DNA from: a virus
Virus record (IMG/VR): IMGVR_UViG_3300007609_001138
Span: 18,994 to 82,993 of that record
Length of the DNA stretch: 64,000 nt
Strand: one strand, 5' to 3'
Both the position numbers and the translations under genes were made by a program. Below are positions 3,922-28,859 of the stretch, one piece after another (position 1 is the stretch's first letter; each line of letters opens with the position of its first letter). Under the pieces are notes generated by a model. It saw only the letters and a program-made list of their open reading frames with translations, was not told the DNA's origin and did not search any database.

Positions 3922-4958
3922 CATCACAAATAAAAGCGTATACTAGTTGGCAACCACTGGAAGAAGTAATTGTAGGCAATGTGTTTACGCCAGAACACTT
4001 TGAATTTATCGAAGATCGGCAGGTATTCAATCAGCTTAGTCAGATACTTGAGGAAAGTGCCGAGGACCTGGATAATTTACAAAAAACCATCGAAGAATAC
4101 GGTGCACGAGTACGACGCCCGGATCTACCTAATGTACATCGTTTTCATGAGCAACAGATTGCCGACCAAGGTGCTCCACTGCCTCCATTGACTCCAAGAG
4201 ACTGGCAGATTACACTGGGCGATAAACTATTGCGTGTATTGCCTGTACAAGAACTGGATAATATCTGTGCAGACCTAGAAACCCATAACCCTGGACAGGT
4301 AATAAACCCGCATCAAGGAGAATGGGACGAAAATTGTGTACTCAACGGCGCAAGTGCAAGTTGCATTGTACGAGTAGGCAAAGACGTTTTCTTTGACAAT
4401 TCAGACTATTTAAAACCAGAACAAACTCGCTGGATTGTCGACAATGTTCTAGGCTCAGAATATCGTATACACGAAGCTGTTACTGACGGGCACGGCGATG
4501 CTGTGTTTGCTATTCTCAAACCAGGTGTGCTATTGAGCAGCAAATGGGATGATCAGCTGGATCTAGCAGGCGACTTTCCTGGATGGGATGTTTGTAAAAT
4601 CTGGGATAGTTCAATATGGGCAGCAATGGAAGTTGGCAAATTTAAACAGGAAAACTTTAACGGTCGTTGGTATGTTACAGGACAAACGCCTACTCCAGAA
4701 TTTTCAAACTTTGTAGACAGTTACCTGAGTCAATGGGTAGGATTTGTGGAAGATACAGTGTTCGATGTAAACTGTTTGGTGCTGGACGAAGAAAATGTTA
4801 TTTTTAGTGCATACAACAAACAGGTATTTGACTACTGCGAAAAACACAAGATCAATCCTATTGTCAGTGAACTACGACACAGTTATTTCTGGGACGGAGG
4901 AATCAGTTGTTGTACGCAAGACCTACGTAGAAAAGGTGAGTTAGAGAGCTATCTCTAG
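3918..4958 (+). CDS. Amidinotransferase-like enzyme (guanidino-modifying superfamily), 346 aa
   Basis: The protein resembles glycine/inosamine amidinotransferases and arginine deiminases. Residues 9-20 read [12 protein letters not shown], as at the start of that fold. FFDNSDY at 158-164, HGDA at 192-195 and [12 protein letters not shown] at 327-338 match the expected Asp, His and nucleophilic Cys regions, with Cys331 or Cys332 as candidate nucleophile. Length suits the family (about 340-420). Such enzymes move an amidino group from arginine to an amine. The gene is coupled to the glycosyltransferase-like gene by an ATGA overlap, hinting at amidination of an amino sugar or similar product. Its stop codon TAG shares CTAG with the stop of the convergent ferredoxin gene. 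Family assignment is fairly firm; substrate is unknown. Confidence 0.8.
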
Positions 4959-4963
4959 CTCTC
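4944..4963. terminator. Hairpin across convergent overlapping stop codons
   Basis: GAGAGCTA, loop TCTC, TAGCTCTC: a perfect 8-bp stem with a 4-base loop. The two stop codons of the convergent genes lie inside it at 4955-4958 (CTAG). The position suggests a compact bidirectional terminator or mRNA 3'-end stabiliser. No U-run follows on either strand, so intrinsic termination is uncertain. Confidence 0.45.
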
Positions 4964-5296
4964 CATATAATGCTGTATATATTGTACCTTGCCGGGCACA
5001 TCTGTCCATGATTTGTGATCTGACAACGGGTCTATTTTTTGAGTAATATTGTTATCTGCCCATTTTGCTGATAGCTCTGCATTTATTTTAAACCAGTCAA
5101 TTCCGTCATCGGGTACTTCGTCTTCTGCAACAATGGCATCCACAGGACACTCTGGAATACAAACTGCACAGTCAATGCACTCATCAGGGTTGATTACAAG
5201 AAAGTCAGGACCTTCGTAAAAACAGTCCACTGGGCATACATCAACACAGTCTGTGTGTTTGCATTTAATACAATTGTCAGTTACTAAGTGTGTCAT
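4955..5296 (-). CDS. fdxA: FdxA-type seven-iron ferredoxin, 113 aa
   Basis: Cysteines 9, 17 and 21 (the last before Pro) with C12 and C25 nearby, followed by C40, C43, C46 and C50 ([11 protein letters not shown]), reproduce the FdxA arrangement of one [3Fe-4S] and one [4Fe-4S] cluster. CPVDCFYEG and DEVP after the second cluster also fit. Length is typical (about 107-113). AGGAG precedes the ATG at good spacing. It is the last gene of the long minus-strand block, eight bases after a ferredoxin-NADP reductase. That pairing suggests a soluble electron carrier supplying the eight radical SAM enzymes upstream; the link to them is inference. Confidence 0.95.
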
Positions 5297-5303
5297 AAGT
5301 CTC

Positions 5304-6011
5304 CTAGGTTACAAATGCACGTTCAAGTACAAACGTGCCTGGATTTTTCTTATTGCCTTCAGTGTATCCATTGGATACTAAAAGATTTTTCATGTCTTGG
5401 TTGAATGCCATACTGCCGCATAACATCACTCTATCTGTTTCTGGGTTACTATTAGTCATTATAGCGCCAGATTCAATATGTTTTTGTATACGTCCTGTGT
5501 TAACAAATTCTTCCTGAGTTACTGTCGGGAAATAATCTATGTCAAGATCTTGCAAAAACTCGTGATAACTTAATAATTCAGCAGGTGTTCTCACAGTCCA
5601 GGTTACATGTACTCGTTTGTAAATATTGAAGATTTCTCCGTCTCGTAACAAACTGATAAAAGGTGCAATGCCAGTTCCAGTTGCCATTAGCCAAAGATCG
5701 TGTCCTGGTTGCACAAATTGTGTTGTTAAACTTCCTGTTGGTCGATCGCCTACTTCTATAGTATCACCAGGTTGTACATGTTGTAGTCTACTTGTTAACG
5801 GACCATCGGGTACCTTAATACTGTAAAATTCCAGAAACGGATCTCCTGGTGCACTGGTAATACTGTAAGCTCTCATGAGATCATTATCTCCCATTCCTAT
5901 CATTGTAAACTCACCAGCACGAAAAGTAAAGTCATTTGGCTTTTCTGTTCGGATCCTAAACAGTCGATCTGTGTAGTGTTCTACTTCTGTTATTTTTAAT
6001 ATTTCTGACAT
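5304..6011 (-). CDS. fpr: Ferredoxin-NADP+ reductase (Fpr family), 235 aa
   Basis: FAD site RAYSITS at residues 47-53, GPLTSRL at 70-76, the nucleotide-binding loop [10 protein letters not shown] at 109-118, VMLCGSM near 200 and an aromatic-containing C-terminal tail (FVLERAFVT) all match bacterial Fpr-type reductases. Length is close to the usual 245-260. The enzyme passes electrons between NADPH and ferredoxin through FAD. GAGG sits five bases before the ATG, and the gene overlaps the upstream SGNH-like gene by 16 bases. With the adjacent ferredoxin it forms a complete NADPH-to-ferredoxin module, plausibly dedicated to the radical SAM cluster. Confidence 0.95.
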
Positions 6012-6712
6012 AACAACCTCTGTTTGACTTCCTCAGCATAATCCTGCTGATATTGCCCGGGGCAGTGATACGTAGGAAGTTTTAATTGATCATGATTTTT
6101 AAAATTTTCTATCCAAATCTTTTGAAGATTTGTTTCTGTTTCTAATGAATAATATTTTTCAAAAAACAGTTTATCAACATCATCGCCGTAGGTTTTAAAA
6201 AATTTTTTACTCTCGGTACGATAAAACATTCTATATACAGCATCGTTGGTCGGTATCTGCAATACAGTTCTACTCCATGCTATTGCTTTGGAATTTTCAC
6301 ATGCTATTTCTAATGCCTTTGCAGCTACTGACATAGCTGCAAAGTCTTGCGCAGGAGTATGTGCTAATTTGTTGTAATATTCTATGCAATCTTTATGTTC
6401 TTGAGTCTGATATTCTTTGTTACAGCTTGTAAACCATCTGTAGGTGAGTTTTTTATAAAACGGATCTTGTCCTGGTGCAAAACTAAAATCTGTTCTATAA
6501 CAATCAGTAAACCCTAAAAAAATATAATCAGGATTAATTTTTAATCCTTCAAGCAGTTGACTGAGTATTCCAGTATTACTTGCGCCAGGTATTGCATAAT
6601 TAGTTACTTCAAAATCACTGTTTAACAATTCACTCCAATGAGTGTTGCGATATTTTGGTGTTTGATCTTCGGCATGAAAGCTGTCACCTACTACTAGCAG
6701 TCTAGGTTTCAT
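5996..6712 (-). CDS. SGNH-hydrolase-like protein, about 238 aa
   Basis: The N-terminus MKPRLLVVGDSFHAED carries the GDSx nucleophile motif of SGNH esterases/acetyltransferases, followed by NYAIPGASNTG, which fits the block II/III Gly and Asn positions. The C-terminal DxxH pair is not clear to me (candidates lie around PTYHCPG near the end). An ATG three codons further upstream exists, but I prefer 6712 because it makes an ATGA overlap with the carbamoyltransferase stop. No signal peptide, so a cytoplasmic role such as adding or removing an acyl group on a sugar is more likely than a secreted esterase. Substrate unknown. Confidence 0.75.
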   Translation of the reverse strand: MKPRLLVVGDSFHAEDQTPKYRNTHWSELLNSDFEVTNYAIPGASNTGILSQLLEGLKINPDYIFLGFTDCYRTDFSFAPGQDPFYKKLTYRWFTSCNKEYQTQEHKDCIEYYNKLAHTPAQDFAAMSVAAKALEIACENSKAIAWSRTVLQIPTNDAVYRMFYRTESKKFFKTYGDDVDKLFFEKYYSLETETNLQKIWIENFKNHDQLKLPTYHCPGQYQQDYAEEVKQRLLCQKY

Positions 6713-8217
6713 GGTGTACACACTCGTGTGTTATATAATTTCTCGAATCTTTGTGCATCTTCAACCGTATCAACCATCGGTTCGCCACGGATATTCAAGC
6801 TGGTGTTAAGCAACATAGGACAGTCTGTTAACACGTACCATTTCTCTAAAAGCTTTCTTATACCACTGGCGCTGTCCTTGGGTACAGTTTGTACTCTGCT
6901 GGTGCCGTCTACATGCACAATAGCAGGATACAATTCAGGATGTTTACAATAGGCAGTAACCTGCATGTAAGGACTGCTGGAAAATCCTTTGGGCATTGCA
7001 AAGTATTGATCTGCATATTCTTCCAAGATCACAGGTGCAAATGGACGAAACTTTTGACGTTTCTTAATAGTGTTTACTAGATCTTTGATATCGTCGCCTC
7101 TAGGATCTGCTAGTAGACTTCTGTTGCCTAAAGCTCTAGGACCAAATTCAGCACCTCCGGCAGCTACACCTACAATGCGATTTGTTAGCAATTCGTCAAG
7201 TAGTTCGTTAACTGGGTATTCACCTTCGATGCATGTACCGATGTAAGGGTGTTGCCAATTCACACGCTTACCGTAGCGCAATGCTGCACAGCCAAGTCCG
7301 CTGCCGGCATCACCAGGATTGGGCATGATCCATACATTGTCAAAGTTGAATCCAACATTGCGATTTGCAACACAATTAAGTGCTACGCCTCCCATGTACA
7401 CTAGATTCTTGCTTTTTCCCAGTTCAGCAGCTATACACATAACATCTTGAATTAATTCTTCGGTAATGGTTTGAGCTGCAAATGCTATTTCTTCGTTGCT
7501 GTAGTCTTCCCAGTGACTGGCATCTATGCCTGTGTGAAAATTTTCTCGAAACTGTAGTTTGTTGTCTTCATAGAAATAACGCTGTTTCATCTGTGATTCA
7601 AGCATGTTGTTGCTCATAAGCGACTTGGCTTTTTCGTGTCCAAACGCTGCCATGCCCATGGTAATATATTCTTCGTCCATTGGACGTAGACCTACACGTT
7701 GCGTAATAGCACTGTAAAACAATCCAATACTGTGAGGATATCTTTGCCCCCAGAGTTTTTTATAACGTGCTCGTCCGTTGCGATCATAGTATGCATGATA
7801 TATGCTGATGGTGTCAAGTTCGCCAATGGCATCAATAACAACCACTGTGGCATCGTCATAAGGAGAAGTTTGAAATCCTGCGGCTGCATGACTGAGGTGA
7901 TGCGGATAACAGCTGGTGGTTAAATTGCTGTTCCAGTGATCTCCGAGCATGAATTTTAATGTGCCGTTTAGGCTCCATTCAGACCGGGTTGGTTGTCCAC
8001 TGATCCATTGTTGCATATTGTGCATCCATGGACGTTCGTAGTATGCAACATGTTCAATTGGATATTCAAAACAACGATCCATTATGGATTTACAGAGATG
8101 CCGGTCGTGTTTATTCTTGCTGAATCTTTCACTGTGTGTTGCAAATTGGATATTGCCATCACGATCAAGCACACACACACCTGCATCATGGAATCCTGCA
8201 CTAATTCCTAGTATCAT
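6709..8217 (-). CDS. Carbamoyltransferase (NodU/CmcH/TobZ family), 502 aa
   Basis: Hallmarks of the family are visible: the start MILGISAGFHDAG, metal-binding HHLSH at 106-110, VVIDAIGE at 127-133, YMGGVALNC at 274-282, GPRALGNRSLLADPR at 359-373 and NTSLNIRGEPMVDT near the C-terminus. The first part is the ASKHA/TsaD-like domain that makes carbamoyl-adenylate from carbamoyl phosphate and ATP; the C-terminal domain transfers the carbamoyl group, usually to a sugar hydroxyl. Length is slightly shorter than many (about 550-600). The start at 8217 gives the canonical N-terminus. It sits among sugar-modifying genes, so carbamoylation of a glycan or nucleoside is the natural inference. Such genes are known from large marine phages. 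Confidence 0.93.
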   Translation of the reverse strand: MILGISAGFHDAGVCVLDRDGNIQFATHSERFSKNKHDRHLCKSIMDRCFEYPIEHVAYYERPWMHNMQQWISGQPTRSEWSLNGTLKFMLGDHWNSNLTTSCYPHHLSHAAAGFQTSPYDDATVVVIDAIGELDTISIYHAYYDRNGRARYKKLWGQRYPHSIGLFYSAITQRVGLRPMDEEYITMGMAAFGHEKAKSLMSNNMLESQMKQRYFYEDNKLQFRENFHTGIDASHWEDYSNEEIAFAAQTITEELIQDVMCIAAELGKSKNLVYMGGVALNCVANRNVGFNFDNVWIMPNPGDAGSGLGCAALRYGKRVNWQHPYIGTCIEGEYPVNELLDELLTNRIVGVAAGGAEFGPRALGNRSLLADPRGDDIKDLVNTIKKRQKFRPFAPVILEEYADQYFAMPKGFSSSPYMQVTAYCKHPELYPAIVHVDGTSRVQTVPKDSASGIRKLLEKWYVLTDCPMLLNTSLNIRGEPMVDTVEDAQRFEKLYNTRVCTP

Positions 8218-8225
8218 GTACGGCC

Positions 8226-8354
8226 TTACTTGTAGATGAAAGGATCTCTTTTACGAAGTTCCTTGAGTTTTCGCTTATATTGAATATGCAGTTTGATTCT
8301 GCGATATGTGTCAAGCACCCAGCGAAATGTAATAATATATTTTAACGTGTTCAT
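8226..8354 (-). CDS. Small basic protein, 42 aa
   Basis: ATG 8354 to TAA 8226. The peptide begins MNTLKYIITFRWVLDTYRR and ends in a lysine/arginine-rich helix (KRKLKELRKRDPFIYK). AAGGGG six to seven bases before the ATG is a good ribosome site, and the gene fills the space upstream of the carbamoyltransferase. The N-terminal 15 residues are hydrophobic and the rest is strongly basic, suggesting a short amphipathic or membrane-adjacent peptide. Function unknown. Confidence 0.65.
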   Translation of the reverse strand: MNTLKYIITFRWVLDTYRRIKLHIQYKRKLKELRKRDPFIYK

Positions 8355-8378
8355 GGTTTTCCCCTTGCACTGTAATTA

Positions 8379-9473
8379 TCAATGATCGGCCAGTGCCCGA
8401 ATTTGTTGAGCCATGTAGTCTTGATCACTCCAGTGATACGAATACTCTGCATGTTGATCATTGGTACTAACACTGTGTACATCTAAATAATCGTTAAGCA
8501 GTGCCCAAATGGTTTCAAAATTATCTGTGCCAAAGCTAGCATGCAAGTCTACTTGCCCTATCTGCGGATGCCCAATTGTGAGACTTTTGTCCTCAGGATC
8601 AAATCCGTTTGCTATTAGCCAACTTCTAAAATCTGCCATTTCACGTTGAAAAAATTCATAGTTGCCAGGATTGTTTGCCCATTCGATATCAAAGTCTCCG
8701 GCAGCTTCGGTTTGACTGTTCAACGATGTAGTAACCAACTCGTCAATTCTGCTGTCTCGTCCTTCGTCGTGAAATACTTCCCAGTGATGTTTACCTACAG
8801 CTTTGTTAACTCCTACAAATACACCGCCCAATGGTCTGGCCAGTGTTTCTACTCCAAACAGTTCATAGTCACTTTCGTCTAATGTAAATCTCGGAGCATT
8901 GAGCCAGCACATCAATTGACTAGGTCTACGCCACTCAGGTGCATGTAGTTTTTTACGCATGCTTAGTACAAGACTTTCGTATTCATGGCACAGCAAATTC
9001 AGCTGACGTATGTGCCAGCGAGTCATGTCGTTTGCCTGTTTGTAATAAGGGCTGATATCTGCACTGGTTCCTTGTAGATCTTCAAAGTATCTATGCAACC
9101 AATTCATTTTTTCCTGAACCAGTTTGTGCCCGGGTAAATCCTCACCTACTGGTCCAGTGGTTATTGTGTTTTCAACTGTGAAGTGGTCATGAATAGCATA
9201 GTCCAAGTTGCTAGCGTTGATTGCTGCAATGCTGCGATTGATTTGATCGCAGATGTATTCTGCACTGCGTTCACCGTCAGGAAAGCCAAAAAAGCAATAG
9301 TTCTTTTCTAGATGTAGATCTCTGCTTAGTATTGTGTTTAGTGCGTCAAGCCATTTTCTCGACAGGCCGTTGTCGTATACATCAATGTGCACCGGCAACA
9401 GTGATCCTGATGTACGATTCTTTAGCTCGATTGAAATTTTATCCAATAATTGGAATTGATTGCCACCAGTCAT
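8379..9473 (-). CDS. Conserved-looking protein of unknown function, about 364 aa
   Basis: I recognise no catalytic family. The protein starts MTGGNQFQLLDKISIELKNR, has LLPVHIDVYDN soon after, a charged middle with RWHIRQLNLLCHEYE, and an acidic C-terminal half with ASFGTDNFETIW. Cysteines are few and not spaced as a metal site. The frame opens upstream at GTG 9524 and ATG 9515, but these overlap the preceding radical SAM gene by 77-86 bases; ATG 9473 with AGAGA upstream overlaps by 35 and is preferred. It follows a radical SAM gene directly, so it may be a partner protein of that enzyme. This is context only. Confidence 0.7.
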   Translation of the reverse strand: MTGGNQFQLLDKISIELKNRTSGSLLPVHIDVYDNGLSRKWLDALNTILSRDLHLEKNYCFFGFPDGERSAEYICDQINRSIAAINASNLDYAIHDHFTVENTITTGPVGEDLPGHKLVQEKMNWLHRYFEDLQGTSADISPYYKQANDMTRWHIRQLNLLCHEYESLVLSMRKKLHAPEWRRPSQLMCWLNAPRFTLDESDYELFGVETLARPLGGVFVGVNKAVGKHHWEVFHDEGRDSRIDELVTTSLNSQTEAAGDFDIEWANNPGNYEFFQREMADFRSWLIANGFDPEDKSLTIGHPQIGQVDLHASFGTDNFETIWALLNDYLDVHSVSTNDQHAEYSYHWSDQDYMAQQIRALADH

Positions 9474-10755
9474 AAATGTCTCTGTTGTGTTCCTGTAAAA
9501 TATCGCCGTATCCATAGTTATCACTGCGGATACTCTCTAGTCGTAATACTCGCTTTTTACCTGCGACCAATCCTGACTGCCAGTCATCTGGCCATTGTTC
9601 TTGAAAGGTTGGCCTGTTTTTTAGCTGTAATAGTACGTCTTTTAGTGCGCCATTGGGTACGCTCTGTGATAAGCTGTCAACTTGTTTATCTAACAATTCT
9701 CGAGGCAATGCCAATGGACTTAGCACAATATCCGGAGAGAATCCAAATACAACTTTTGCTAGTATATCCACACCCAGATCGTCGGCTAGCTGTTGCATAG
9801 GCTCTACTTCAAACAGCCCCGGCAGTGTGAGTGTGAAGTCTAATCGCATTTGTCTGCGATTTTTCTGTAGGTCTACACCTTGTTTAAAGTTATCTAAAAA
9901 CTGTTGATAATTCAAGCCAGTGCGTATGTATTCGCCGATTTTACCAGTGCCATCTATGCTAGCACATATCTGCCAGTCTCGTATGTTACTGATAATGTCT
10001 TGATATAGATGCGCACCTTTGTACTCAATTCTACTGAGATTTGTATTGTACCGAGCATAAAGTCCAGGACCGTCTCCCAATTCTACGATCCTGGACATAT
10101 ACCTCCAATGTTGCTCATACATTAGAGGTTCTCCGCCTACCCAATAAACTTCTTGCACCCTGTGTTCTTCAACAGCTTGAGCAAATTCAGCTTCAATCTG
10201 AGTGTCTTGAAATTTGGATATTTCTGCACGGACTTCGGGACGCATCCAATTGTTTTTAGGATTGTCCCAATCGATCATGTTGTGTTTTCGTTGTTCAGTT
10301 TCCCAGGCTGAACTCAACATGTCCCCGCAGGTTCTGCATTTAAAGTTGCAGAGATTACTGAAACGATAGTCCCAGCTAACAGGTTGCATACTGGTATGTC
10401 CTGATTCGTCTGTGTTTTCCCATATATCGTCGTAGTGATGCTTAAACAGATGCCAGAAATAATCTCTATATACATCAGTGTTTAATAGTTTGTCATTGCA
10501 CACTTCGCACTCGCTGAGGGTTTCGCCTGACATCATTCTACGGCGCACACTTTTCATGTGCTCGCTGTTCCAGTGTTCTTCTAGAGTGCTTGGTTGGTAT
10601 TCGCCAGTGCCTGCGTCTGTGTCAATGTACTGTTTGAAATTCTGCGCAGGTTCTCTGCTGGCACAACACATTCTGCGCTCTGTTTGTGGACTGAGATAGG
10701 TGTGTGTCCACGGAGCCATACACAGACTGTGCGGTTTTTCTTTAGGTTTTGTCAT
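9439..10755 (-). CDS. Radical SAM protein 1 (twitch/SPASM-like, subtype A), 438 aa
   Basis: CNFKCRTC at 136-143 is the CX3CX2C motif that binds the SAM-reducing [4Fe-4S] cluster; VGGEPLM is the SAM-amino-group GGEP motif. The N-terminus carries C12-M-A-P-W, M-C30-C31 and C83-x2-C86, a set of cysteines upstream of the core barrel suited to an auxiliary Fe-S cluster. SxDGTG in the second half fits the barrel strand pattern. Substrate is unknown. It lies between the cytidylyltransferase (14-base overlap) and the unknown gene at 8379, and needs one-electron reduction that the nearby ferredoxin and Fpr could provide. Confidence 0.92.
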   Translation of the reverse strand: MTKPKEKPHSLCMAPWTHTYLSPQTERRMCCASREPAQNFKQYIDTDAGTGEYQPSTLEEHWNSEHMKSVRRRMMSGETLSECEVCNDKLLNTDVYRDYFWHLFKHHYDDIWENTDESGHTSMQPVSWDYRFSNLCNFKCRTCGDMLSSAWETEQRKHNMIDWDNPKNNWMRPEVRAEISKFQDTQIEAEFAQAVEEHRVQEVYWVGGEPLMYEQHWRYMSRIVELGDGPGLYARYNTNLSRIEYKGAHLYQDIISNIRDWQICASIDGTGKIGEYIRTGLNYQQFLDNFKQGVDLQKNRRQMRLDFTLTLPGLFEVEPMQQLADDLGVDILAKVVFGFSPDIVLSPLALPRELLDKQVDSLSQSVPNGALKDVLLQLKNRPTFQEQWPDDWQSGLVAGKKRVLRLESIRSDNYGYGDILQEHNRDIYDWWQSIPIIG

Positions 10756-11164
10756 TGTGTAAAGAGGCTACTCTGCGTCTTAGATCGCTGCTGCTGAACC
10801 GATGTTCTCTTTTATTGAAGTATAACTGAATACCACGCTTTTTGCAAATATCTTTGCCAGTGAAGTCATGCTCTCTGTATTCTTCTCCAAGTATGCGCAC
10901 ATCTATGTGCATCATTTCTAAGATGTCTTCTAAATCTCTTTCATTTTCGTACACAACAATTTCATCTACATAGCGCACAGCCTGTAGCTGTGTATATCTT
11001 TCTACCAGTGTTTGCACAGGAGAGTTTTTGTTAGCACGGTCGCGGCTTGGATCCACTTGAAGTCCTACCATTAAGTAATCGCACTGTTCCTTTGCTTCGC
11101 GCAGCATTGCTACATGTCCTGCATGTAACAGGTCAAATGTACTACAGGTAAATCCTACTTTCAT
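10742..11164 (-). CDS. Cytidylyltransferase-like nucleotidyltransferase, 140 aa
   Basis: HxGH motif (HAGH) at 14-17 in the context FTCSTFDLLHAGHV and a C-terminal FSSSDLRRR at 123-131, the counterpart of the RTxGISTT signature, place it in the glycerol-3-phosphate / ethanolamine-phosphate / HldE-type cytidylyltransferase family. Length (about 130-150) is typical of stand-alone members. The family transfers CMP (or AMP) from a nucleoside triphosphate onto a phosphorylated alcohol or sugar, yielding an activated donor. It is coupled by a 4-base ATGA overlap to a radical SAM gene upstream. An activated sugar-alcohol donor for the glycosyltransferase-like genes is a reasonable inference. Confidence 0.9.
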   Translation of the reverse strand: MKVGFTCSTFDLLHAGHVAMLREAKEQCDYLMVGLQVDPSRDRANKNSPVQTLVERYTQLQAVRYVDEIVVYENERDLEDILEMMHIDVRILGEEYREHDFTGKDICKKRGIQLYFNKREHRFSSSDLRRRVASLHNDKT

Positions 11165-16851: not shown

Positions 16852-16852
16852 G

Positions 16853-17977: not shown

Positions 17978-19460
17978 TGTAATCCTCGATATGCTGTATT
18001 ATTTTTTTATGTTTTGCGTAAGAAGCAAATCCACCATGCGCATTATCATATTCATGGTCTATGTTTTTGTATTCTTCAACATGCCAGTAAGGATGTAATG
18101 TATTACAACTGTCAATTGATTTTTTCATTGGCAACTCTAACCATGTACATATATGTGCTAAGGTTTCCTGCGGCGAAAAAATTATGTCTTTTAAAAGAAT
18201 TTTCTTAATGTTTCTGTTTTCAATGGCGTCGTTGAAGTGCGCAGGAAAGGCAAACAAATTGTTGGCAAAATTCAGTGCAGATTCTTTGTGCAAGACAGTG
18301 TGTAAAGTGCGCAATACATCTTCTAATTCAAAATTTTTATTTTGTATTACAATCAAATTTTTTACTCGGGTTTGTAAATAGCCAAACCATTCGTTGATGT
18401 TTATCTTGTGTTGCTCTAAGAGCTTATTATGACTTTCGATTGATGTTTCATAAAACAGATTATCACTGTCAGTAATATGATGTAAAACCTCCGTTAAGCA
18501 TTGGCTAGCTACGCTGGTATTATGTACAATTAAATTACAGTCTGCAAGGGTTTTGTTGACTACCTGATCGTAAATCTCATTTAATATTTTTTCTTTTTTT
18601 TCTGCAATGTAAAATACAGCAGGATAAATGTTTCTAACTTTTGGAGTAGCCAACAAGTCTACAAATTCTTGACTCTGTATTGGTAACTGTTTTAAACAGT
18701 CATGATAAATTATGCTGTCAGTACTTGATATTGATTTTAATTGTGTTAAATGTTGCCTTATTTTTTGTTTATGTATATCTGGAATTTTTTCACGCAACAC
18801 TGGATTTTTATCTCTGAACAAAGTTAGAATTTTTTCATCTTGATCTAGGTACGCCTGTCTATCCTGCCAAAAATTGATAGATTCTTCTATCTCCTTGGTA
18901 GATCGTGCACTATTCTTATGTTTCCACCATTGACATAAGGTAGTTAACGTCTTCACTGGTCTGTTAACCAACTGTTTCATTTTAACTACATGTAAGTTGC
19001 AGTGTTCGATACTGTTAATCTGGTTTGATGCATTTTGAAAAGTAGAGATTGCTCTTGCTAGTTCAATAACATTTGTAACTTTTGTAAAACTGCAAAAGGG
19101 CATTTCGGGTTGTCTATTGTTGAGCAATTCTAGTATGCAGTTTGTAGGATCAATGACCACTGTAGGACCCGTGTCTGCAATTTCTAGAATGTCAGATTCT
19201 ATGTCATTGACATTGTAATGTAATCTCACTATGCTACTTGTTGTGTTTGTATTTGTAAGATGATATTCATCGTGTCTATTGATAAAATTATCACGATAAT
19301 TGTGTACGCTACCGTTTTCGGTTATAACGTCTTCAATGCTTTGGTAATTTAGATCATCTAACCATCCTAGTGCCCAGCATAAAAAGTTTCCGTAATCTCC
19401 GCCTGTATGTACTACACGGAGATCAAACTGTTCGAGATATTTCAAATAGTCGTCATGCAT
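17958..19460 (-). CDS. Protein of unknown function with weak sulfotransferase-like C-terminus, 500 aa
   Basis: Starts MHDDYLKYLEQFDLRVVHTG and continues GGDYGNFLCWALGWL. The middle is helical and charged with no recognised motif. Near the C-terminus, KILLKDIIFSPQETLAHICTWL resembles the family tail in which a sulfotransferase acceptor helix follows a Glu/Asp-rich strand, but no clear PAPS loop is visible, so this is only a hint. AT-rich like radical SAM protein 6 next to it. Overlaps both neighbours by 8-20 bases. Function unknown. Confidence 0.75.
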   Translation of the reverse strand: MHDDYLKYLEQFDLRVVHTGGDYGNFLCWALGWLDDLNYQSIEDVITENGSVHNYRDNFINRHDEYHLTNTNTTSSIVRLHYNVNDIESDILEIADTGPTVVIDPTNCILELLNNRQPEMPFCSFTKVTNVIELARAISTFQNASNQINSIEHCNLHVVKMKQLVNRPVKTLTTLCQWWKHKNSARSTKEIEESINFWQDRQAYLDQDEKILTLFRDKNPVLREKIPDIHKQKIRQHLTQLKSISSTDSIIYHDCLKQLPIQSQEFVDLLATPKVRNIYPAVFYIAEKKEKILNEIYDQVVNKTLADCNLIVHNTSVASQCLTEVLHHITDSDNLFYETSIESHNKLLEQHKININEWFGYLQTRVKNLIVIQNKNFELEDVLRTLHTVLHKESALNFANNLFAFPAHFNDAIENRNIKKILLKDIIFSPQETLAHICTWLELPMKKSIDSCNTLHPYWHVEEYKNIDHEYDNAHGGFASYAKHKKIIQHIEDYSDKHRE

Positions 19461-20877
19461 GATTGTTTTTACTCCTATACTCGCACAGCTTCCACCAGTC
19501 GCTCATCTCTGGAAAAGTTTCCTGGAAGTTTGTATTTCTTCTTCGATCATGCTCGCTGAAAAATCTATAAAAGTCAGCCTGTGCACAATGTAGAAATTCT
19601 GTGTCTAAATCTTGCCCGTTTCGCATCCAGGCAATGTCACGATCCAATCTCTGTATTTCGTAGTCCTTAAATCCTTTAAGTCGTGTGTCTGCTGTTTCGG
19701 CTTGTGCAATCATCCAGCTCCACAATCTTTCCAGTTGTACTACATAGCTTTCTGGCAGTATCTGCAGGCTCTGCCACTCAGGTTGTCTTAGCACAGGAGT
19801 ATCAAACCAAACTCGCTGATAGGTCTCGCTGTACACTTTACGCAAGCCCAGTATACCAGCAAATAGATCACCTAGGCTAGGAACACTGAGATTGTTCATA
19901 GTTACAATAAAAGTAAGACTGCTACGCTCTGGCACTTCATTTAAAAATTGATTGCATCTATCCCACATGAGATCAAAGTCAAGACCGTTGCGCATGTATT
20001 CTGCTTGCTTGCCCCAGCCGTCGACACTGACAAACTGCATATAGTGTTCAACATGTCCTTCGTTGCACAAACGCTTGACATATTCTAAATATTTTTTCCA
20101 CAAACGTTCATCAACGCTGAAATTACTAGTAACATTTAAATGCAATTTGGGATTAGGATTTTCCAACACATAATCAAATACACGATAGGTATTTTTATCC
20201 ATCAACGGCTCGCCACCGGTCATACGAAAGTGTTCTAGTTCTGGATATAGTTCAGGCCACCATTTCCAAAATGCTTCTACATAAGGATTGTGTTCTCTTG
20301 CAGGTATCGGGCGGCGATCTCCTTGAAAGTGTTTTGGGTCGTTGTGCGGTGTACTAGTAGGCCATGCACCATGTTTTTCAGTTTCTTCCATCCACGAACT
20401 ACTAAACTGCGGACTGCAATAGCTGCACCGCAGATTGCATGCACTGTTAAAGTTTACTTCTACATATGCAGGATTCACATCTTCGTCACCGGTGCTGGCA
20501 ATAATATTATCAAAATCTTTGGCGGCCCACGGCTCACCTGATCTATAGTGTCTGTCGCTGAGTTTACCGTTATCCTCCATTGCCCAACAATAGCTGCATT
20601 CTTCTGGACGTTCTCCGGCAAGCATACGTTTACGCTGTTGTTTTTTCCAAGCAGTGTTGTGCAGTGCGCTGGGATTGTTTTCGAGTTCAAGTGCATCAAT
20701 TCTATGCAAAGGAGGATGATAACAACTGTTGTTATAGCCATTGGTGAGGTGTAAACTAACCTGTTTCCACTTTGCTAGACACATGCCAGGGCCAACCTGA
20801 TTCAGTGCGTCTCGCATGTCTTCTGCGTTGGTAATAAACCCACTGCGAAAGTCTTTGTTTACTTCGTCACCTTTCAT
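19453..20877 (-). CDS. Radical SAM protein 7 (subtype B), 474 aa
   Basis: Third member of subtype B: M-C33-LAKW, SC52YHPPLH, C94-x2-C97, CNLRCSYC at 147-154 (CX3CX2C), TGGEPLMD, and the C-terminal signature HDRRRNTNFQETFPEMSDWW. It is more diverged than proteins 4 and 5, which are adjacent to each other. SVDGWGKQAEYMRNG fits the SxDG strand. It overlaps its neighbours by four and eight bases. Substrate is unknown. Confidence 0.92.
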   Translation of the reverse strand: MKGDEVNKDFRSGFITNAEDMRDALNQVGPGMCLAKWKQVSLHLTNGYNNSCYHPPLHRIDALELENNPSALHNTAWKKQQRKRMLAGERPEECSYCWAMEDNGKLSDRHYRSGEPWAAKDFDNIIASTGDEDVNPAYVEVNFNSACNLRCSYCSPQFSSSWMEETEKHGAWPTSTPHNDPKHFQGDRRPIPAREHNPYVEAFWKWWPELYPELEHFRMTGGEPLMDKNTYRVFDYVLENPNPKLHLNVTSNFSVDERLWKKYLEYVKRLCNEGHVEHYMQFVSVDGWGKQAEYMRNGLDFDLMWDRCNQFLNEVPERSSLTFIVTMNNLSVPSLGDLFAGILGLRKVYSETYQRVWFDTPVLRQPEWQSLQILPESYVVQLERLWSWMIAQAETADTRLKGFKDYEIQRLDRDIAWMRNGQDLDTEFLHCAQADFYRFFSEHDRRRNTNFQETFPEMSDWWKLCEYRSKNNHA

Positions 20878-21725
20878 AGATCTTTTTTATACTCTGCGTA
20901 GATTTGATCGCCGTTGTACTTTTCTGGACAGAATTTGCACTGCGGTATACTATTGCCGATATTGGCAAAGAACTGTTCTTTGTTTTCTGCGTCTACTGTT
21001 AGCGGTTGATAACTTTGCATGAGTTTTCTGTCACTGTTACTTAATTGTAATTGATACTGCGAGTCAAATTCTGGCAGCAGTGCTACCACGCCACACTTGT
21101 AGAGTTTTCCGTCTATCCAGTGGTGACAATTTTTCATGTGGCAATTGCTGTGAGCCAATTCTGGATCGCTGTTGTGTAACCGCTTTACACCAAGTTGATC
21201 TATTATAGATCCTTGATGAAACCACCAGTTGTATTCAATCCGGGTAGCAATGCCATTGCAGTCTCGCAAAATTCTGTAAACATTGTACGGATCATCGTTG
21301 TTTACAGTATCGATCACTGGCCCTTCTAACCATTGATGAACTCTAGAAACCACATCCGGTACATGATTTTCGTTGTGTATACCAACCCATACGCTAAATC
21401 TGTCTTTGTACTCTCTATTGAGATCGTAAAGATCTTGTCTGTGTTCAATTCTATAGCCATTGGTAATCAATCGCAAGTATGTGTCGGGCCAAAGCTCAAG
21501 TATGCCGCGGCACCAATCAATTACATCTGGATTAAGCAAAGGTTCTCCACCAAGCACTGCACAGTGTCTAATAGACACAGATTTACTCCACTCTCGGTAC
21601 ACAGGTTCTAAATCTGCCCAGCGTTGGCGTCCACGGAAGTTGTAGTTGTTGAATCTGTTGCAACCAGGGCAACTGAGATTGCACACATTGGTAATGTAAA
21701 ATTCAGAATAATCTAATTGGTGCAT
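20874..21725 (-). CDS. Radical SAM protein 8, short form with C-terminal cysteine cluster, 283 aa
   Basis: Unlike the other seven, the cluster motif CNLSCPGC lies at the very N-terminus (15-22) with LGGEPLLN at 58-65. Auxiliary cysteines are C-terminal: C195, C200, C211, C263 and C266, a SPASM/twitch-like arrangement. The strand ITNG at 87-90 and WVGIHNEN are typical. Size fits short radical SAM/SPASM proteins. The start at 21725 overlaps the glycosyltransferase-like gene by 13 bases. Related proteins act on peptides or small molecules; the substrate here is unknown. Confidence 0.92.
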   Translation of the reverse strand: MHQLDYSEFYITNVCNLSCPGCNRFNNYNFRGRQRWADLEPVYREWSKSVSIRHCAVLGGEPLLNPDVIDWCRGILELWPDTYLRLITNGYRIEHRQDLYDLNREYKDRFSVWVGIHNENHVPDVVSRVHQWLEGPVIDTVNNDDPYNVYRILRDCNGIATRIEYNWWFHQGSIIDQLGVKRLHNSDPELAHSNCHMKNCHHWIDGKLYKCGVVALLPEFDSQYQLQLSNSDRKLMQSYQPLTVDAENKEQFFANIGNSIPQCKFCPEKYNGDQIYAEYKKDL

Positions 21726-22693
21726 GGTATACTTGCTATAAAATCTTTGTTCATATCCAGCAAAAGCTGCCTATTGTGCTCTAGTGTGGGCAACATTTCG
21801 TTGTAGATTTTTTTGATTTCGTCGGCGGGTTTTTTGGCTAGACGATCAATTACTTTTTTAATCTCGCCTGGCTGCCAGTCAGCTGGATCTTCGGCATAAC
21901 CTTCGTCCCACCATTGATTAAAAGTTTTGAATCCTAATTTTTGTAATCTATGTAAAAAATGCTGGGACCCTTGTACTATAAACGGAGTTTGCATTATGAT
22001 AGGTCTCCAGATTTTTTCTGTTGGGAAAAATGTATTTCCTACATAGGAAGTTTCGCACACAATTTCTACAAAAAAATTTCTGTATTGCGAATACATGTTA
22101 CAGTGTTGATTCATTAAAATTGGATACTCTACTGTTTCCTGTAATCTGATTGGACAATGCCGTAAAAAGTTTGATATAGACGCAAGATCACCGGTTCCTT
22201 GTATTTCTACTAGAGTGTCAAGTCCAAGGTTGTTCTTATGATAATCGTCTGAGTAATCATAATGAAAAGTTTGATTTGTTTGCTGTCTATACTTGTTGAA
22301 CAAGTAACTGCTTAGATCCAGTCTATGACAATTACTACGTCCTACAAAAATACCAAATGTTTTTGTAATATCTTTGTTGATTGGTTTGTTTTCTAGTTTT
22401 TTAACAGTGTTAAAAACAAAATGATTAGGAAAAACAGTTTCGAAATTGATTTGATCAACAGACTGCTGATAGGTATTGCAACTTGTAACAGTGATATTAT
22501 CGAGATTATAATTGTGTTCTTTGCAGATACGTATCAATGAATCGAATATATCTAGATTTTCAAAAGCAGGTCCTTCAGACAGAAGATCAATACACACAGG
22601 TTGATTGTTGCAAACAGCCGATGTAAATTGCGAAACAACTTCTATTTTGTTCCACACATAGCTGTCGCTGGTAATCAATCGTATTGTTACCAC
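21713..22693 (-). CDS. Glycosyltransferase-like protein (GTG start), 326 aa
   Basis: C-terminal block with FFPTEKIWRPI, PFIVQGSQHFL and GFKTFNQWWDEGY, the same signature as the plus-strand protein at 2794-3921, followed by a helical tail (LPTLEHNRQLLLDMNKDF). The N-terminal half is unassigned alpha/beta. The frame has no early ATG; GTG 22691-22693 overlaps the stop of the preceding GT-A-like gene and is taken as start. Probably a cytoplasmic sugar transferase, based on motif resemblance only. Confidence 0.75.
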   Translation of the reverse strand: MVTIRLITSDSYVWNKIEVVSQFTSAVCNNQPVCIDLLSEGPAFENLDIFDSLIRICKEHNYNLDNITVTSCNTYQQSVDQINFETVFPNHFVFNTVKKLENKPINKDITKTFGIFVGRSNCHRLDLSSYLFNKYRQQTNQTFHYDYSDDYHKNNLGLDTLVEIQGTGDLASISNFLRHCPIRLQETVEYPILMNQHCNMYSQYRNFFVEIVCETSYVGNTFFPTEKIWRPIIMQTPFIVQGSQHFLHRLQKLGFKTFNQWWDEGYAEDPADWQPGEIKKVIDRLAKKPADEIKKIYNEMLPTLEHNRQLLLDMNKDFIASIPCTN

Positions 22694-23610
22694 CCTTCGA
22701 TCTGCCTAATTACATCAATTTCACGGACCATTATACCGCGATTGACCCAATCGCTGCGATAGTGCTGTTTAAAAAATGCACTGGCAGTGTCAGAAAAGTC
22801 AGCCAGTGGCAACTCCAGTTGTGTTGCTAGATCTTCACTTACACTGCCGATTACTTCTCTTGGATGCCGATCTTCAACTGTGGTCCACAATTCAGCTAGT
22901 TTGTCAAAGTCTTGCACATCTTTATAGTTCCAGTTGGTTAACATGGTCATGTAAGTGCCTTGCCTGGCACCTGCAATTGCCCATTCACCGTTTTCCACAT
23001 CGTAGCCAACGTTGTGCCAGATAGTCAAATGATCAAGATTTCTTTTGTGAACGCTATCTTTGAATTCATCAACACTGGGCTTTGTGCCTTTGTTGAGGCA
23101 CATTTTTACACCTTCTCTGAATCCTGCCCGCCATGCATGAAAAGCACTGCCATTGGGATAAGTTACACTGTAACAGTCATGCATTGCCCAGTACAATGGA
23201 TCAAAGCAAAACTCAACATCAGTGTCATCGGAGCCTGTGCTGTTTTCGTGTGTGTTCATATTAAACACAAAGTCTTTGGTCCATGAACTAACACCGCCGT
23301 TGCCGTACATCAATCCATTGACAACATTTCTAGCTCGCCAACGATAAACAGCACGTTGATATTCTTCTGTGGGCATGTCCAGCGTTTGATTGAAAAAATC
23401 AGCTTCTGGAATATTGTCACCATCAATGAGAATAAAGCGATCAGTATCTGATTCTTCAGCGGCAGCTTTGTGGGCAGCATCGCTGCCTTTAACACCGTCT
23501 ACTCGTTTGGCCCAAGGAATCATGTTTTTGATCTGAACCCAGAACTCTTCTTTCAGTGGCTCGTCGTAGGTAAGAAAAATACAGTCTAAATCTGCTACAT
23601 CTACTTTCAT
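22687..23610 (-). CDS. GT-A-like glycosyltransferase, 307 aa
   Basis: PWAKRVDGVKGSDAAHKAA followed by DRFILIDGDN (DGD at 63-65) matches the nucleotide-sugar and metal-binding segment of GT-A glycosyltransferases. GGVSSWTKDFV and SAFHAWRAGFREG follow in the acceptor half. Related modules with the DxD apparently lost occur in the long repeat protein at the left edge of the window. Starts with ATG 23610, one base after the methyltransferase gene stop. A role in building a phage-directed glycan is likely; donor and acceptor unknown. Confidence 0.8.
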   Translation of the reverse strand: MKVDVADLDCIFLTYDEPLKEEFWVQIKNMIPWAKRVDGVKGSDAAHKAAAEESDTDRFILIDGDNIPEADFFNQTLDMPTEEYQRAVYRWRARNVVNGLMYGNGGVSSWTKDFVFNMNTHENSTGSDDTDVEFCFDPLYWAMHDCYSVTYPNGSAFHAWRAGFREGVKMCLNKGTKPSVDEFKDSVHKRNLDHLTIWHNVGYDVENGEWAIAGARQGTYMTMLTNWNYKDVQDFDKLAELWTTVEDRHPREVIGSVSEDLATQLELPLADFSDTASAFFKQHYRSDWVNRGIMVREIDVIRQIEGW

Positions 23611-23611
23611 A

Positions 23612-24262
23612 TTAATGTCCTAAAATAAATCTCACACTGCCGTTGCAATTAAAGTATCCCCGTCCGTGCCAGTCATGTCCTCTTAGTTTAGGACAATCAA
23701 ACATTTTTAACTTGTACCCACTCTGCGCCACTGTGTTGTAAAACTTGGTTAGTACTATATCCAAGTTATCACTGGGCAAGTTTTGCATTTGATCGAAATT
23801 AAAAGTAAACAAAAAGTCACGTTTAACAACACGCATTGCGTTGTGTATCTGCTTAGGCAAACTTTGCCAGTCGCAGTAGTGTAGACTGCCCAGTGCCATG
23901 CCAGCGTCCCAGAAGTTTTCATTGATGTCTGCATAATCTGTATCAAAGTATGCTATGTCATCCACTGTGCCGCCCGGCCATTCTTCAGTGTCCACTCCTA
24001 TAATGCCAGGAAACCAGTTTGCGAATATGTTTTCACCACAGCCTATGTCAACCACACTGTCTGGTTCACAGGTATACAGTCGATCAATATACCAGAAGAT
24101 ATCTCTAAAGCCAATTTTCAATCCGCTTTCATATCTATATCTAGGAGTGCTTTTTGGAATCTCTACGTCCAGTGACACATAGTCATAGTGTTGATGTAGT
24201 CTAGCATCTAGATCAGGAAAAACTGCAAAAGTCTTTTCAGGTGAATAATTATTTACAAGCAC
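23612..24262 (-). CDS. SAM-dependent methyltransferase-like protein (GTG start), 216 aa
   Basis: VDIGCGEN at 71-78 is motif I of class I methyltransferases; GVDTEEW supplies the acidic residue after strand beta-2, and AGMALGSLHYCDW is in the motif IV position. The C-terminal part has VVKRDFLFTFNF. Size is typical of small-molecule or sugar methyltransferases. GTG 24262 is the only reasonable start, with GGGAG upstream. It sits among glycosyltransferase-like genes, consistent with O-methylation of a sugar, which is inference. Confidence 0.82.
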   Translation of the reverse strand: MLVNNYSPEKTFAVFPDLDARLHQHYDYVSLDVEIPKSTPRYRYESGLKIGFRDIFWYIDRLYTCEPDSVVDIGCGENIFANWFPGIIGVDTEEWPGGTVDDIAYFDTDYADINENFWDAGMALGSLHYCDWQSLPKQIHNAMRVVKRDFLFTFNFDQMQNLPSDNLDIVLTKFYNTVAQSGYKLKMFDCPKLRGHDWHGRGYFNCNGSVRFILGH

Positions 24263-24573
24263 TGCTTTAACTCCCAGTGATAATCTGTATCTGCAATTAC
24301 CATTACATTGTTTGGTAATGTACTTGTGCCCGATGTACCTGGTACAAGTTTTGTTGGCACAGTATCATTTATCTCGACTATTTGATTGTTTTTTATAATC
24401 ACATTGTAGTTGCCTTGAGCATACTGTGCCTTGCTGATGTTAATATATTTAAAATTCAAGTCTTCCATGCTATAGCATATAGGTTCACCGGTGCTTTCAT
24501 TATAATACAATCTATATTCAACTTCAACTGAATTGAGTTGAATTTTTGCAAACTCTTGTAAAAAATCATTCAT
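24253..24573 (-). CDS. Small phage protein of unknown function, 106 aa
   Basis: Begins MNDFLQEFAKIQLNSVEVEY, continues with YRLYYNESTGEPICYSMED and a beta-rich half (NVIIKNNQIVEIND). No catalytic motif is visible. An upstream TTG at 24585 is possible, but ATG 24573 is a better start and overlaps the preceding glycosyltransferase-like stop by eight bases. Small proteins of this look accompany glycan-modification genes in marine phages, as far as I recall. No function can be assigned. Confidence 0.7.
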   Translation of the reverse strand: MNDFLQEFAKIQLNSVEVEYRLYYNESTGEPICYSMEDLNFKYINISKAQYAQGNYNVIIKNNQIVEINDTVPTKLVPGTSGTSTLPNNVMVIADTDYHWELKQCL

Positions 24574-25375
24574 AATACGGCTCAAACTGCTTGGCTAATT
24601 CTTTACAGTGATAGTGCCACAATGCACACTGTGTATATCCATTGACTCTTACTTGCCCGCTGTCGATTTCCCAGGTTAGGCTTTTATGCCACTCAGTGGG
24701 TGTGCGAACAATGTCACTTTTCATGTGAACTATCCTGGGTGATAGATTGTGCGGTAAGGTACATTTTTCGATACCACAGATCAGTGTTGCTAGACTGTAT
24801 GCAAGATCAGTGTTAGGCAATTCACCACGTGCATATTTAACAGCAGTCATTGCATCTGACCAATTATCAAAAAGCTTTTTCACTGTTACAAAAAATTTCT
24901 TTGCCATCTCGCTTTGTCGCCAATAGGTAAATGCGTTGTAAGTGTCAGGAAGATTGTTTTTATGTATTACATTTCTATAACGACGGCACTCTACTGATTC
25001 GCCTTTAAAGTCCAGTGCACCTGTGCTTACTACTATATCTCGATGACGCAGCATATCCCAATAATGGTCAATTGGTTGTGCAATCAACATGTCAGCTTCT
25101 AACTTGATGGTTTCATGAAAAGGACTTGCAATATAACATTGCCAATCATTAGCATAGGGATTATCATCTGTGCGCAGATCACCATAGGGCAATGTTTTAA
25201 CTATGTCAAAATCGTTGTCTGCTGGTAGCTGTTTATCTGTTAGTAAACAAACAACGGCATTCTTGTGCCAGTGCTTTAAACTACGACTTAACACACGAGC
25301 ACATGTTGTATAATCCGAGTCCTGCGAATCTATAGCAACAATGAGATATCCTCGATCATGTGCGTATGCTGTCAC
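24566..25375 (-). CDS. Glycosyltransferase-like protein (GTG start), 269 aa
   Basis: The N-terminus RGYLIVAIDSQDSDYTTCAR and CLLTDKQL resemble the nucleotide-binding strands of GT8/GT-A-like folds, and ETIKLEADMLI places an ExD at 93-95 in the usual metal-site position. LPNTDLAYSLATL follows in the acceptor region. There is no in-frame ATG early, and GTG 25375 with AGGGG upstream is the start. It overlaps the adjacent gene by 20 bases. It pairs with the similar protein at 25356-26144. Fold assignment is moderate, substrate unknown. Confidence 0.75.
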   Translation of the reverse strand: MTAYAHDRGYLIVAIDSQDSDYTTCARVLSRSLKHWHKNAVVCLLTDKQLPADNDFDIVKTLPYGDLRTDDNPYANDWQCYIASPFHETIKLEADMLIAQPIDHYWDMLRHRDIVVSTGALDFKGESVECRRYRNVIHKNNLPDTYNAFTYWRQSEMAKKFFVTVKKLFDNWSDAMTAVKYARGELPNTDLAYSLATLICGIEKCTLPHNLSPRIVHMKSDIVRTPTEWHKSLTWEIDSGQVRVNGYTQCALWHYHCKELAKQFEPYYE

Positions 25376-26144
25376 ACTGTGCCCCTAAACTGATTTTGTC
25401 AGATATGTGAATATCATTGTAGACTATAATTCTTTTTTTCTTGTCGTTGAGAGTGTAGGTAACTTCTGTGCTATAGTCTAGCAATTTAAAGTCACAGTGA
25501 TGCGACACTGTGGTCATGCTCCAAGGTATATTAGTAAACTCTGGTATACGACCGCCGTTGACCATTAATAATGCCAGTGTTAGTGCATAGTCGTTTCTAA
25601 AAGGAGATTTATTAAATCTAAACAAATCACTGTAATGGCCATAGTTTTGTTCTATCATCTGCCAGGCGCTGAACACTGACTCTGCAAATCTATTTCTTGT
25701 AAATTGACACACTGTAGCCCATACATGAGGTGTATTGGTTTTGCCGAATGTTTCTTCTTGCATGGTCAAAGGCAGATACTGATTGTTGTGAAAGCACAAA
25801 AACTCATTTTCTGAATCTAGCACTGATTTCAACTCATTACCATTGAGAAAATAATCACAGTCTAGTAACAGTGTATTTTCATAGGGCGATAATGTGTATG
25901 CACTGCTACGAGAACGATTATACCACTGATCTCGATGTTCACTAGCATGCCAGTATCGATCTCCGCCAGAAGACTTTTCAGAATGTATTACAGTATCAAA
26001 CACTGAGTTGTCGACATCAACATCACTGACCAATGTCACAGGAATATCTAGATATTTTTTTACACGTCTAGCACATTCACTGGCTATGCTAACATAATCA
26101 ATGCTGTGATTGTTGAATGCAAAAATTAGTGCGCCGGTACTCAT
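25356..26144 (-). CDS. Glycosyltransferase-like protein with DCD motif, 262 aa
   Basis: GALIFAFNNHSIDYVSIASE at the start, VTLVSDVD, then ENTLLLDCDYFLNG with DCD at 95-97 as candidate metal and nucleotide-sugar site of a GT-A fold. FRNDYALTLALLMVNGG in the second half parallels the corresponding stretch of its downstream neighbour. The gene begins with an ATGA overlap with the first gene of the block. Probably a cytoplasmic glycosyltransferase; specificity unknown. Confidence 0.77.
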   Translation of the reverse strand: MSTGALIFAFNNHSIDYVSIASECARRVKKYLDIPVTLVSDVDVDNSVFDTVIHSEKSSGGDRYWHASEHRDQWYNRSRSSAYTLSPYENTLLLDCDYFLNGNELKSVLDSENEFLCFHNNQYLPLTMQEETFGKTNTPHVWATVCQFTRNRFAESVFSAWQMIEQNYGHYSDLFRFNKSPFRNDYALTLALLMVNGGRIPEFTNIPWSMTTVSHHCDFKLLDYSTEVTYTLNDKKKRIIVYNDIHISDKISLGAQCDSIRT

Positions 26145-26446
26145 CTTTCCTGCTGAATTTTTTCATACTCGGCAAGCCACACATTCATTTGTTCTTGCCA
26201 TCGCTGTTGTGCGGCCAATTCAAGTTCTGTTACATCAATCCTAACAGGATTAGCATGAACATCTAATATCACTGCTGATTCATCAGGACATGCTTGCAGC
26301 ACATTGAGTAATTCTGGACCTGCACACCACATGCCGCCATTGTATGCAAAATGCAACTTAGCAAGCATGCGTTCTTTGAGTACTTGTTTAGCTGTTTCGT
26401 GGTCGAAACGAGATCGAATTTGATTAGAAATATCTGTAGAATTCAT
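26141..26446 (-). CDS. First gene of the accessory block, unknown function, 101 aa
   Basis: Acidic-helical small protein: MNSTDISNQIRSRFDHETAK, then LHFAYNGGMWCAGPELLN, then a long C-terminal helix (AAQQRWQEQMNVWLAEYEKI). No known domain is recognised. Its ATG (26446) lies inside the right-hand part of a perfect dyad, and only seven bases separate the ATG from a TATAAT box, so the message may be leaderless; no ribosome site precedes the ATG. A product at the head of a regulated operon could be autoregulatory, but no helix-turn-helix is evident. Confidence 0.75.
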   Translation of the reverse strand: MNSTDISNQIRSRFDHETAKQVLKERMLAKLHFAYNGGMWCAGPELLNVLQACPDESAVILDVHANPVRIDVTELELAAQQRWQEQMNVWLAEYEKIQQER

Positions 26447-27456: not shown

Positions 27457-27462
27457 AAAAAA

Positions 27463-28836: not shown

Positions 28837-28859
28837 TTAATAGGTACCTTCCGTATTGT

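Follow-up and report, generated by a model that had tools for sequence, protein, structure and literature searches.

Genes of the block and their recurrence in related phages

The stretch of DNA analysed here (the window) comprises 64,000 nucleotides, positions 18,994 to 82,993 of the IMG/VR virus record IMGVR_UViG_3300007609_001138, and is part of an 82,993-bp record. A second record overlaps this one over 50,442 bp with 1 mismatch and both therefore represent the same virus. On the minus strand the genes follow one another almost without gaps: baseplate and tail genes (56,726 down to 26,491) come first, a block with eight radical S-adenosylmethionine (rSAM) enzymes comes next, and FdxA, a ferredoxin gene (4,955), ends the run. 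The largest intergenic gap in the block is 161 bp, the genes on this strand otherwise overlapping or abutting. A previous sequence-only reading had described eight rSAM genes, a ferredoxin and its reductase on one strand, and all of the open reading frames (ORFs) it named were found in place, at the 3' end of the baseplate/tail run. Its count of eight is right for the block but too low for the virus; two more rSAM genes lie in the 82,993-bp record beyond the window, and the overlapping record adds further ones together with MetK, a SAM synthetase.

The eight rSAM ORFs (9439-21725, minus strand) all retain an intact CX3CX2C motif. The glycine-rich SAM motif is GGEP in seven and GGET in the ORF at 16853-17977. 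Seven exceed the cut-off of 170 bits for NCBIfam NF033640 (N-terminal Twitch, or N-Twitch), with 257-403 bits; the ORF at 20874-21725 fails it (27 bits) and passes Pfam Radical_SAM (43.8 bits). A search with rS_12381 yielded 80 viral IMG/VR contigs, onto which the window proteins were mapped. The locus frequencies given here describe one sample, as most relatives came from this single similarity search. The main genes of the locus are as follows.

2794..3921, plus strand: g2794, divergent neighbour; 63/81 loci; no family match
3918..4958, plus strand: amidinotransferase (AGAT/StrB/SxtG/HsvA superfamily), divergent neighbour; 49/81 loci
4955..5296, minus strand: FdxA, 7Fe ferredoxin; accessory, cassette member only in this lineage
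5304..6011, minus strand: Fpr, bacterial ferredoxin/flavodoxin-NADP reductase; accessory
6709..8217, minus strand: O-carbamoyltransferase, NodU/TobZ/GdmN type; core; 66/81 loci
8379..9524, minus strand: g8379, conserved core protein; 55-65% identity over 16 phages
9439..10755, minus strand: core N-Twitch rSAM rS_9439; NF033640 292 bits; 72/81 loci
11161..12384, minus strand: core N-Twitch rSAM rS_11161; NF033640 337 bits; 80/81 loci
12381..14102, minus strand: core N-Twitch rSAM rS_12381 with a 170-aa N-terminal extension; NF033640 403 bits; query of the 80-locus search
14084..15502, minus strand: accessory N-Twitch rSAM rS_14084; 277 bits; 5/81 loci; groups with rS_15499 in the tree
15499..16851, minus strand: core N-Twitch rSAM rS_15499; NF033640 303 bits; 80/81 loci
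16853..17977, minus strand: accessory N-Twitch rSAM, GGET variant; NF033640 257 bits; rare among relatives
19453..20877, minus strand: core N-Twitch rSAM rS_19453; NF033640 330 bits; 80/81 loci
20874..21725, minus strand: short accessory rSAM, not of NF033640; Radical_SAM 43.8 bits; 8/81 loci
21713..22693, minus strand: g21713, possible glycosyltransferase (GT) of the same large phage family as g2794; no family match
22687..23610, minus strand: g22687, possible GT-A enzyme; core; 66-74% identity over 17 phages; weak GT2 matches
24253..26446, minus strand: g24253, GT24566 (possible GT8-like), g25356 and g26141; 48-65/81 loci

The relatives share a fixed gene order. From the tail side, the tail genes are followed by g26491, g26141, g25356, GT24566, g24253 and g22687, then by rS_19453, rS_15499, rS_12381, rS_11161, rS_9439, g8379 and the carbamoyltransferase, and finally by the divergent amidinotransferase and g2794. 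Insertions fall nearly all within six slots and are rare at the rS_15499/rS_12381 and rS_9439/g8379 junctions. Of 20 contigs chosen by a baseplate protein instead, 15 still had NF033640 above cut-off. The tree, which comprised 91 rSAMs, placed every core type in a clade of its own with a support of 98-100; this indicates five old, separate enzymes, and the catalytic motifs (CX3CX2C and the glycine-rich SAM motif) are intact in every full-length orthologue of the core groups. Compared with the sister phage, dN/dS was 0.015-0.083 for all genes that allowed its calculation (FdxA 0.03, Fpr 0.064), with synonymous sites near saturation and those of rS_11161 and g17958 saturated. Degeneration of the rSAM genes, which the sequence-only reading had named as a point that would speak against it, is thus not observed: the motifs are intact and the dN/dS values are low. 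The cassette genes tested are under strong purifying selection. At the end of the baseplate/tail run the phage thus carries a conserved biosynthetic cassette that selection maintains. It had been presented before as a single unit; what recurs in the 80 contigs is a core with five of the rSAMs, to which FdxA and Fpr do not belong.

Among the core genes without an rSAM domain, the carbamoyltransferase has the N and C domains of Pfam Carbam_trans above cut-off (132 and 167 bits), and its closest structures are the 7xb6 carbamoyltransferase, a novobiocin-type enzyme, GdmN and TobZ. The amidinotransferase matched 2jdx (E=3e-12) and also 6u1r, 1bwd and 5wpi. The enzymes it resembles are AGAT, StrB1, SxtG and HsvA; its identity is 70-78% and its catalytic C-terminal Cys is invariant in GGxSCCTQD. 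The protein g8379 contains many invariant residues. It gave no Pfam match and no PDB fold match (AlphaFold2 model, mean predicted confidence (pLDDT) 78), and its structural relatives are only proteins of uncultured phages and of Agrobacterium phage Atu_ph07. Neither g8379 nor rS_19453 had a match in cultured phages at the limits used. The g21713 family is the largest of the variable slots, with 103 copies in 63 loci. GT24566 has a weak glycogenin match (E=0.33).

The closest solved rSAM by profile is anSME (E=6e-4), and a weak Twitch match to BtrN was also obtained (E=0.04). A fold search with the model of rS_12381 (pLDDT 74, the cluster region being poorly modelled) returned only generic rSAM folds, i.e., viperin, CteB, anSME and SuiB (E>0.003).

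Putative electron donors and other support genes

FdxA passes NF045490 (147 vs 135 bits) and all nine cysteines of Azotobacter FdI (AvFdI, 1f5b) align with it; it is a true 7Fe ferredoxin of the FdI type. The best structure match of Fpr is R. capsulatus 2bgi (E=2e-59), with Pfam NAD_binding_1 and FAD_binding_6 above cut-off. It fails the E. coli-type equivalog NF008178 (123 vs 390 bits) and is nearer to bacterial FPRs such as that of R. capsulatus.

The sequence-only reading had treated the two proteins as an integral partner of the rSAM set. This view is not sustained. Across the 80 contigs this lineage, sister phage included, was the only one with the pair in its cassette, and the cassettes of all other lineages examined were without it; most relatives lack it, and an obligate partnership was rejected for this reason. 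FdxA was present in 3 of 30 records selected by rSAM (2 above the curated cut-off) and Fpr in 2 of 30, while neither was found in 20 records selected by baseplate protein; the counts are lower bounds on presence, many records being fragmentary. The pair does co-occur with rSAM genes, as had been expected, but not above the background of the lineage. Among contigs >100 kb, at least four N-Twitch rSAMs were carried by 9 of 12 with FdxA and by 8 of 9 controls picked by ThyX or baseplate protein (Fisher p=0.6), and an enrichment of FdxA in rSAM-rich phages was consequently rejected. Both genes also occur apart from rSAM arrays in other phages (loci L405-L407 and L410). Neither a Fer2 (2Fe-2S) ferredoxin nor a flavodoxin was detected in 30 mostly large records of relatives; together with the usual lack of FdxA/Fpr, this implies that most relatives must use host donors. 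The pair is an accessory of the cassette, and its slot is that occupied by a SufT-like gene in sister lineages.

Other genes in the variable slots bear on rSAM chemistry. These are a SAM synthetase in 10 of 80 loci (TIGR01034, 434 vs 309 bits), a PNP_UDP_1 nucleosidase nearest to methylthioadenosine/S-adenosylhomocysteine (MTA/SAH) nucleosidases in 14 (above Pfam and below NCBIfam equivalog cut-offs), and a PF01883 SufT/PaaD-like Fe-S protein in 8. In the virus studied here MetK is encoded outside the window (G001:C1 31848-32948). The surrounding region of the same virus (G001:C1:20114-32948) also contains epimerase-like, DegT-aminotransferase-like, FolE-like and QueE-like ORFs, recognised by eye. 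With near-copies removed, support genes and FdxA/Fpr were confined to a single clade, where 7 of 10 lineages had them, against 0 of 39 elsewhere (Fisher p=1e-6, a value that overstates independence because the lineages are related). This concentration in the cassette slots, more than the pair alone, suggests that the phage helps to supply its own rSAMs. The earlier proposal of a self-supplied pathway is accordingly borne out in part: MetK, the support genes of the slots, the intact rSAM genes under purifying selection and an apparently functional FdxA/Fpr agree with it, whereas the pair is not general across relatives.

Proposed glycan tailoring and its rivals

The explanation considered best, with a probability of about 0.5, is that the cassette modifies a carbamoylated and perhaps also amidinated glycan, which would be borne by the tail fibres or added to the host surface in the course of infection. 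The five N-Twitch rSAMs, g8379, the O-carbamoyltransferase, the putative glycosyltransferases and the divergent amidinotransferase would form its core. In this phage, low-potential electrons could pass from NADPH through Fpr and FdxA to the rSAM clusters, and phage MetK would top up SAM. The product would be a modified glycan on virion fibres or the host surface. A glycan is favoured because of the kinship of the carbamoyl- and amidinotransferases, the epimerases in some cassettes and the site after the tail genes, with protein modification ranked next. The carbamoyltransferase relatives 7xb6, GdmN and TobZ act on sugars or natural products, and nucleotide-sugar epimerases are present in 11 of 80 loci. 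Bacterial N-Twitch relatives adjoin a carbamoyltransferase homologue in a Halobacteriovorax metagenome-assembled genome (MAG), with epimerases, and in a Bdellovibrionaceae MAG, and they adjoin GT2-like genes in an Acidobacteria MAG. Tandem N-Twitch rSAM arrays were also seen in Elusimicrobia and Rickettsiales MAG contigs (L301, L313, L314), in an order unlike that of the phage cassette.

Several observations weigh against glycan tailoring. No enzyme of the cassette has a known substrate, several bacterial N-Twitch relatives have no glycan genes nearby, and the solved rSAM nearest by profile, anSME, modifies protein, the fold match of rS_12381 being generic. The glycosyltransferase, methyltransferase and SGNH labels are all under family cut-offs; among the enzyme labels given previously, the carbamoyl- and cytidylyltransferase did pass Pfam. 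FdxA/Fpr is missing from most relatives, and the support genes are confined to one clade, so that their gains amount to few events. It had been stated that the product is not identifiable from the sequence, and this holds equally for the rSAM substrates, which could be read neither from sequence nor from models.

The anSME match would also suit a protein-maturation island, in which the rSAMs modify tail-fibre or baseplate proteins (thioether, formylglycine or epimerised residues) and no glycan is made. SPASM/Twitch enzymes include peptide maturases, and the cassette comes after fibre and baseplate genes in one run. However, inspection of the cassette ORFs by eye, without a search for RRE domains, revealed no precursor peptide, and carbamoyl- and amidinotransferases and nucleotide-sugar epimerases better suit small-molecule or sugar chemistry; this alternative is regarded as unlikely. 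The same enzymes could instead, through BtrN-, StrB- and TobZ-like chemistry, yield a small, diffusible compound of aminocyclitol- or guanidino-like type with which rival phages or host functions are blocked, given the resemblance of the amidinotransferase to StrB1 and SxtG, that of the carbamoyltransferase to TobZ and GdmN, and the BtrN Twitch match. That match is weak, however, and the family searches run revealed no 2-deoxy-scyllo-inosose synthase, non-ribosomal peptide synthetase or export gene in the block, making such a product improbable. Viperin-like antiviral or nucleotide-analogue enzymes acting against competitors are very improbable: viperin is among the top fold matches, but the family scores are weak (NF038283, 14-35 bits vs a cut-off of 180), by which identity with viperin was rejected, and the N-Twitch architecture differs.

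A further question is whom the support genes serve. FdxA/Fpr and MetK might contribute to general host redox and SAM metabolism during infection and lie near the rSAMs by chance, as could be expected from the occurrence of FdxA and Fpr apart from rSAM arrays in other phages, from the missing enrichment of FdxA and from the position of MetK outside the cassette in this virus. On the other hand, the pair occupies the slot of the SufT-like gene of sister lineages and a single clade has nearly the whole concentration of support genes in its cassette (7/10 vs 0/39); the host-directed role is possible, if somewhat unlikely. The glycan reading can be extended to a virus-borne, largely self-supported rSAM line with its own SAM, FdxA/Fpr electrons and five rSAMs plus g8379, leading to a new fibre or cell-surface modification, and in sister phages with Fe-S delivery and 5'-deoxyadenosine removal in addition, 5'-deoxyadenosine being both a product and an inhibitor of rSAM enzymes (PMC8102628). 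As a joint claim this extension is tentative and rather unlikely.

Neighbouring genes and known phage systems

The carrier belongs to a lineage of aquatic tailed phages whose baseplate proteins are T4-like. The T4 late-promoter string TATAAATA had 0 exact matches in the window, and the numbers of promoter-like sites were close to the level of shuffled sequence. The remaining features of the run are given below.

5996..6721, minus strand: SGNH-like ORF, variable slot; no family above cut-off; related ORFs in few other loci
10742..11164, minus strand: cytidylyltransferase-like (TagD/HldE domain II type), variable slot; PF01467 56 bits; 9/81 loci
17958..19460, minus strand: g17958, fast-evolving ORF with a weak sulfotransferase hint; Sulfotransfer_3 E=0.03, below cut-off
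26491..29528, minus strand: fibre-like/tail-associated genes, upstream in the run; phage virion and tail families
43652..47353, minus strand: baseplate wedge protein, upstream in the run; phrog_10646 E=5e-272

The g17958 protein is 44% identical to that of the sister phage, and one ORF of the fibre-like group has an autoproteolytic chaperone domain (Peptidase_G2, barely above cut-off). In another phage contig (G018:C1:55000-65713) Fpr adjoins a cytidylyltransferase 78% identical to that of the window. A 931-aa ORF at 3-2795 of the window (minus strand) carries 3 copies of the motif DPPYIYVFGNQW and has a conserved place next to the amidinotransferase (23 of 81 loci); it had no family above cut-off and no tandem repeat at the DNA level. 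A second group on the plus strand (G000:C1:3988-9283, locus L009) contains a SPASM rSAM (3988-4953), a B12-binding rSAM (7053-8579) and a methyltransferase-like ORF and directly precedes a tail-fibre-like gene (9316-11751), so that rSAM genes adjoin fibre genes both there and in the cassette. In the same locus (L009:12986-14113) a PhyH-like 2-oxoglutarate oxygenase gene lies between MoxR-like and VWA-like genes. The contig of Marine virus AG-345-D19 (MH319727), which is derived from a single cell, unites an amidinotransferase with a carbamoyltransferase (47% identity) and the beginning of an N-Twitch rSAM.

Phages rich in rSAM genes have been known since 2010 without an assigned function. Such phages have already been published (PMC2853527, PMC5332604), as has one from Lake Baikal in which rSAM, MetK and nucleosidase genes occur together (PMC7678222); the searches run, which covered open-licence papers, brought up no description of the five-rSAM cassette. 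The fixed order of this cassette, together with g8379 and the carbamoyl- and amidinotransferase steps, makes a single pathway, open to expression and assay, out of an odd gene list, and the support genes of the slots provide a handle on a possible remodelling of SAM and redox supply by phages to serve their own chemistry. A product in the form of a virion or surface glycan would bear on how abundant aquatic phages recognise their hosts.

The Campylobacter phages CP220 and CPt10 (Firehammervirus) carry 11-12 rSAM genes each, in exchangeable clusters each with a glycine amidinotransferase (PMC2853527), and resemble the present phage in combining many rSAM genes with an amidinotransferase in clusters. 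However, the rSAMs of CP220 are not of NF033640 (best 31 bits vs 170), by which identity with the Campylobacter modules was rejected, and carbamoyltransferase and ferredoxin are unmentioned in PMC2853527. The cultured large Vibrio phage K566 (OZ196521) has several NF033640-type genes as here, but at 22-26% identity and with no cassette synteny seen. Host-recognition islands of pelagimyophages, which are variable and belong to the structural region, combine tail fibres and glycosyltransferases with rSAM cassettes (PMC7029224). They are like the present cassette in position after tail genes, the tail-gene neighbourhood being what was compared, while HTVC008M has no NF033640 member. The T4-like marine virus TARA_ERS488813_N000010 contains 12 rSAM genes and the Fe-S support genes ATC, Grx and PaaD; in the parts of PMC5332604 consulted it differs in supplying Fe-S clusters rather than a ferredoxin/Fpr pair, and cassette synteny is not described there. 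The T4-like phage population VP_139 of Lake Baikal encodes rSAM proteins, a methionine adenosyltransferase and an MTA/SAH nucleosidase, which were read as pyrroloquinoline quinone and SAM-cycle functions of a methylotroph phage (PMC7678222); by description rather than by sequence, its support genes are those found in the cassette slots here.

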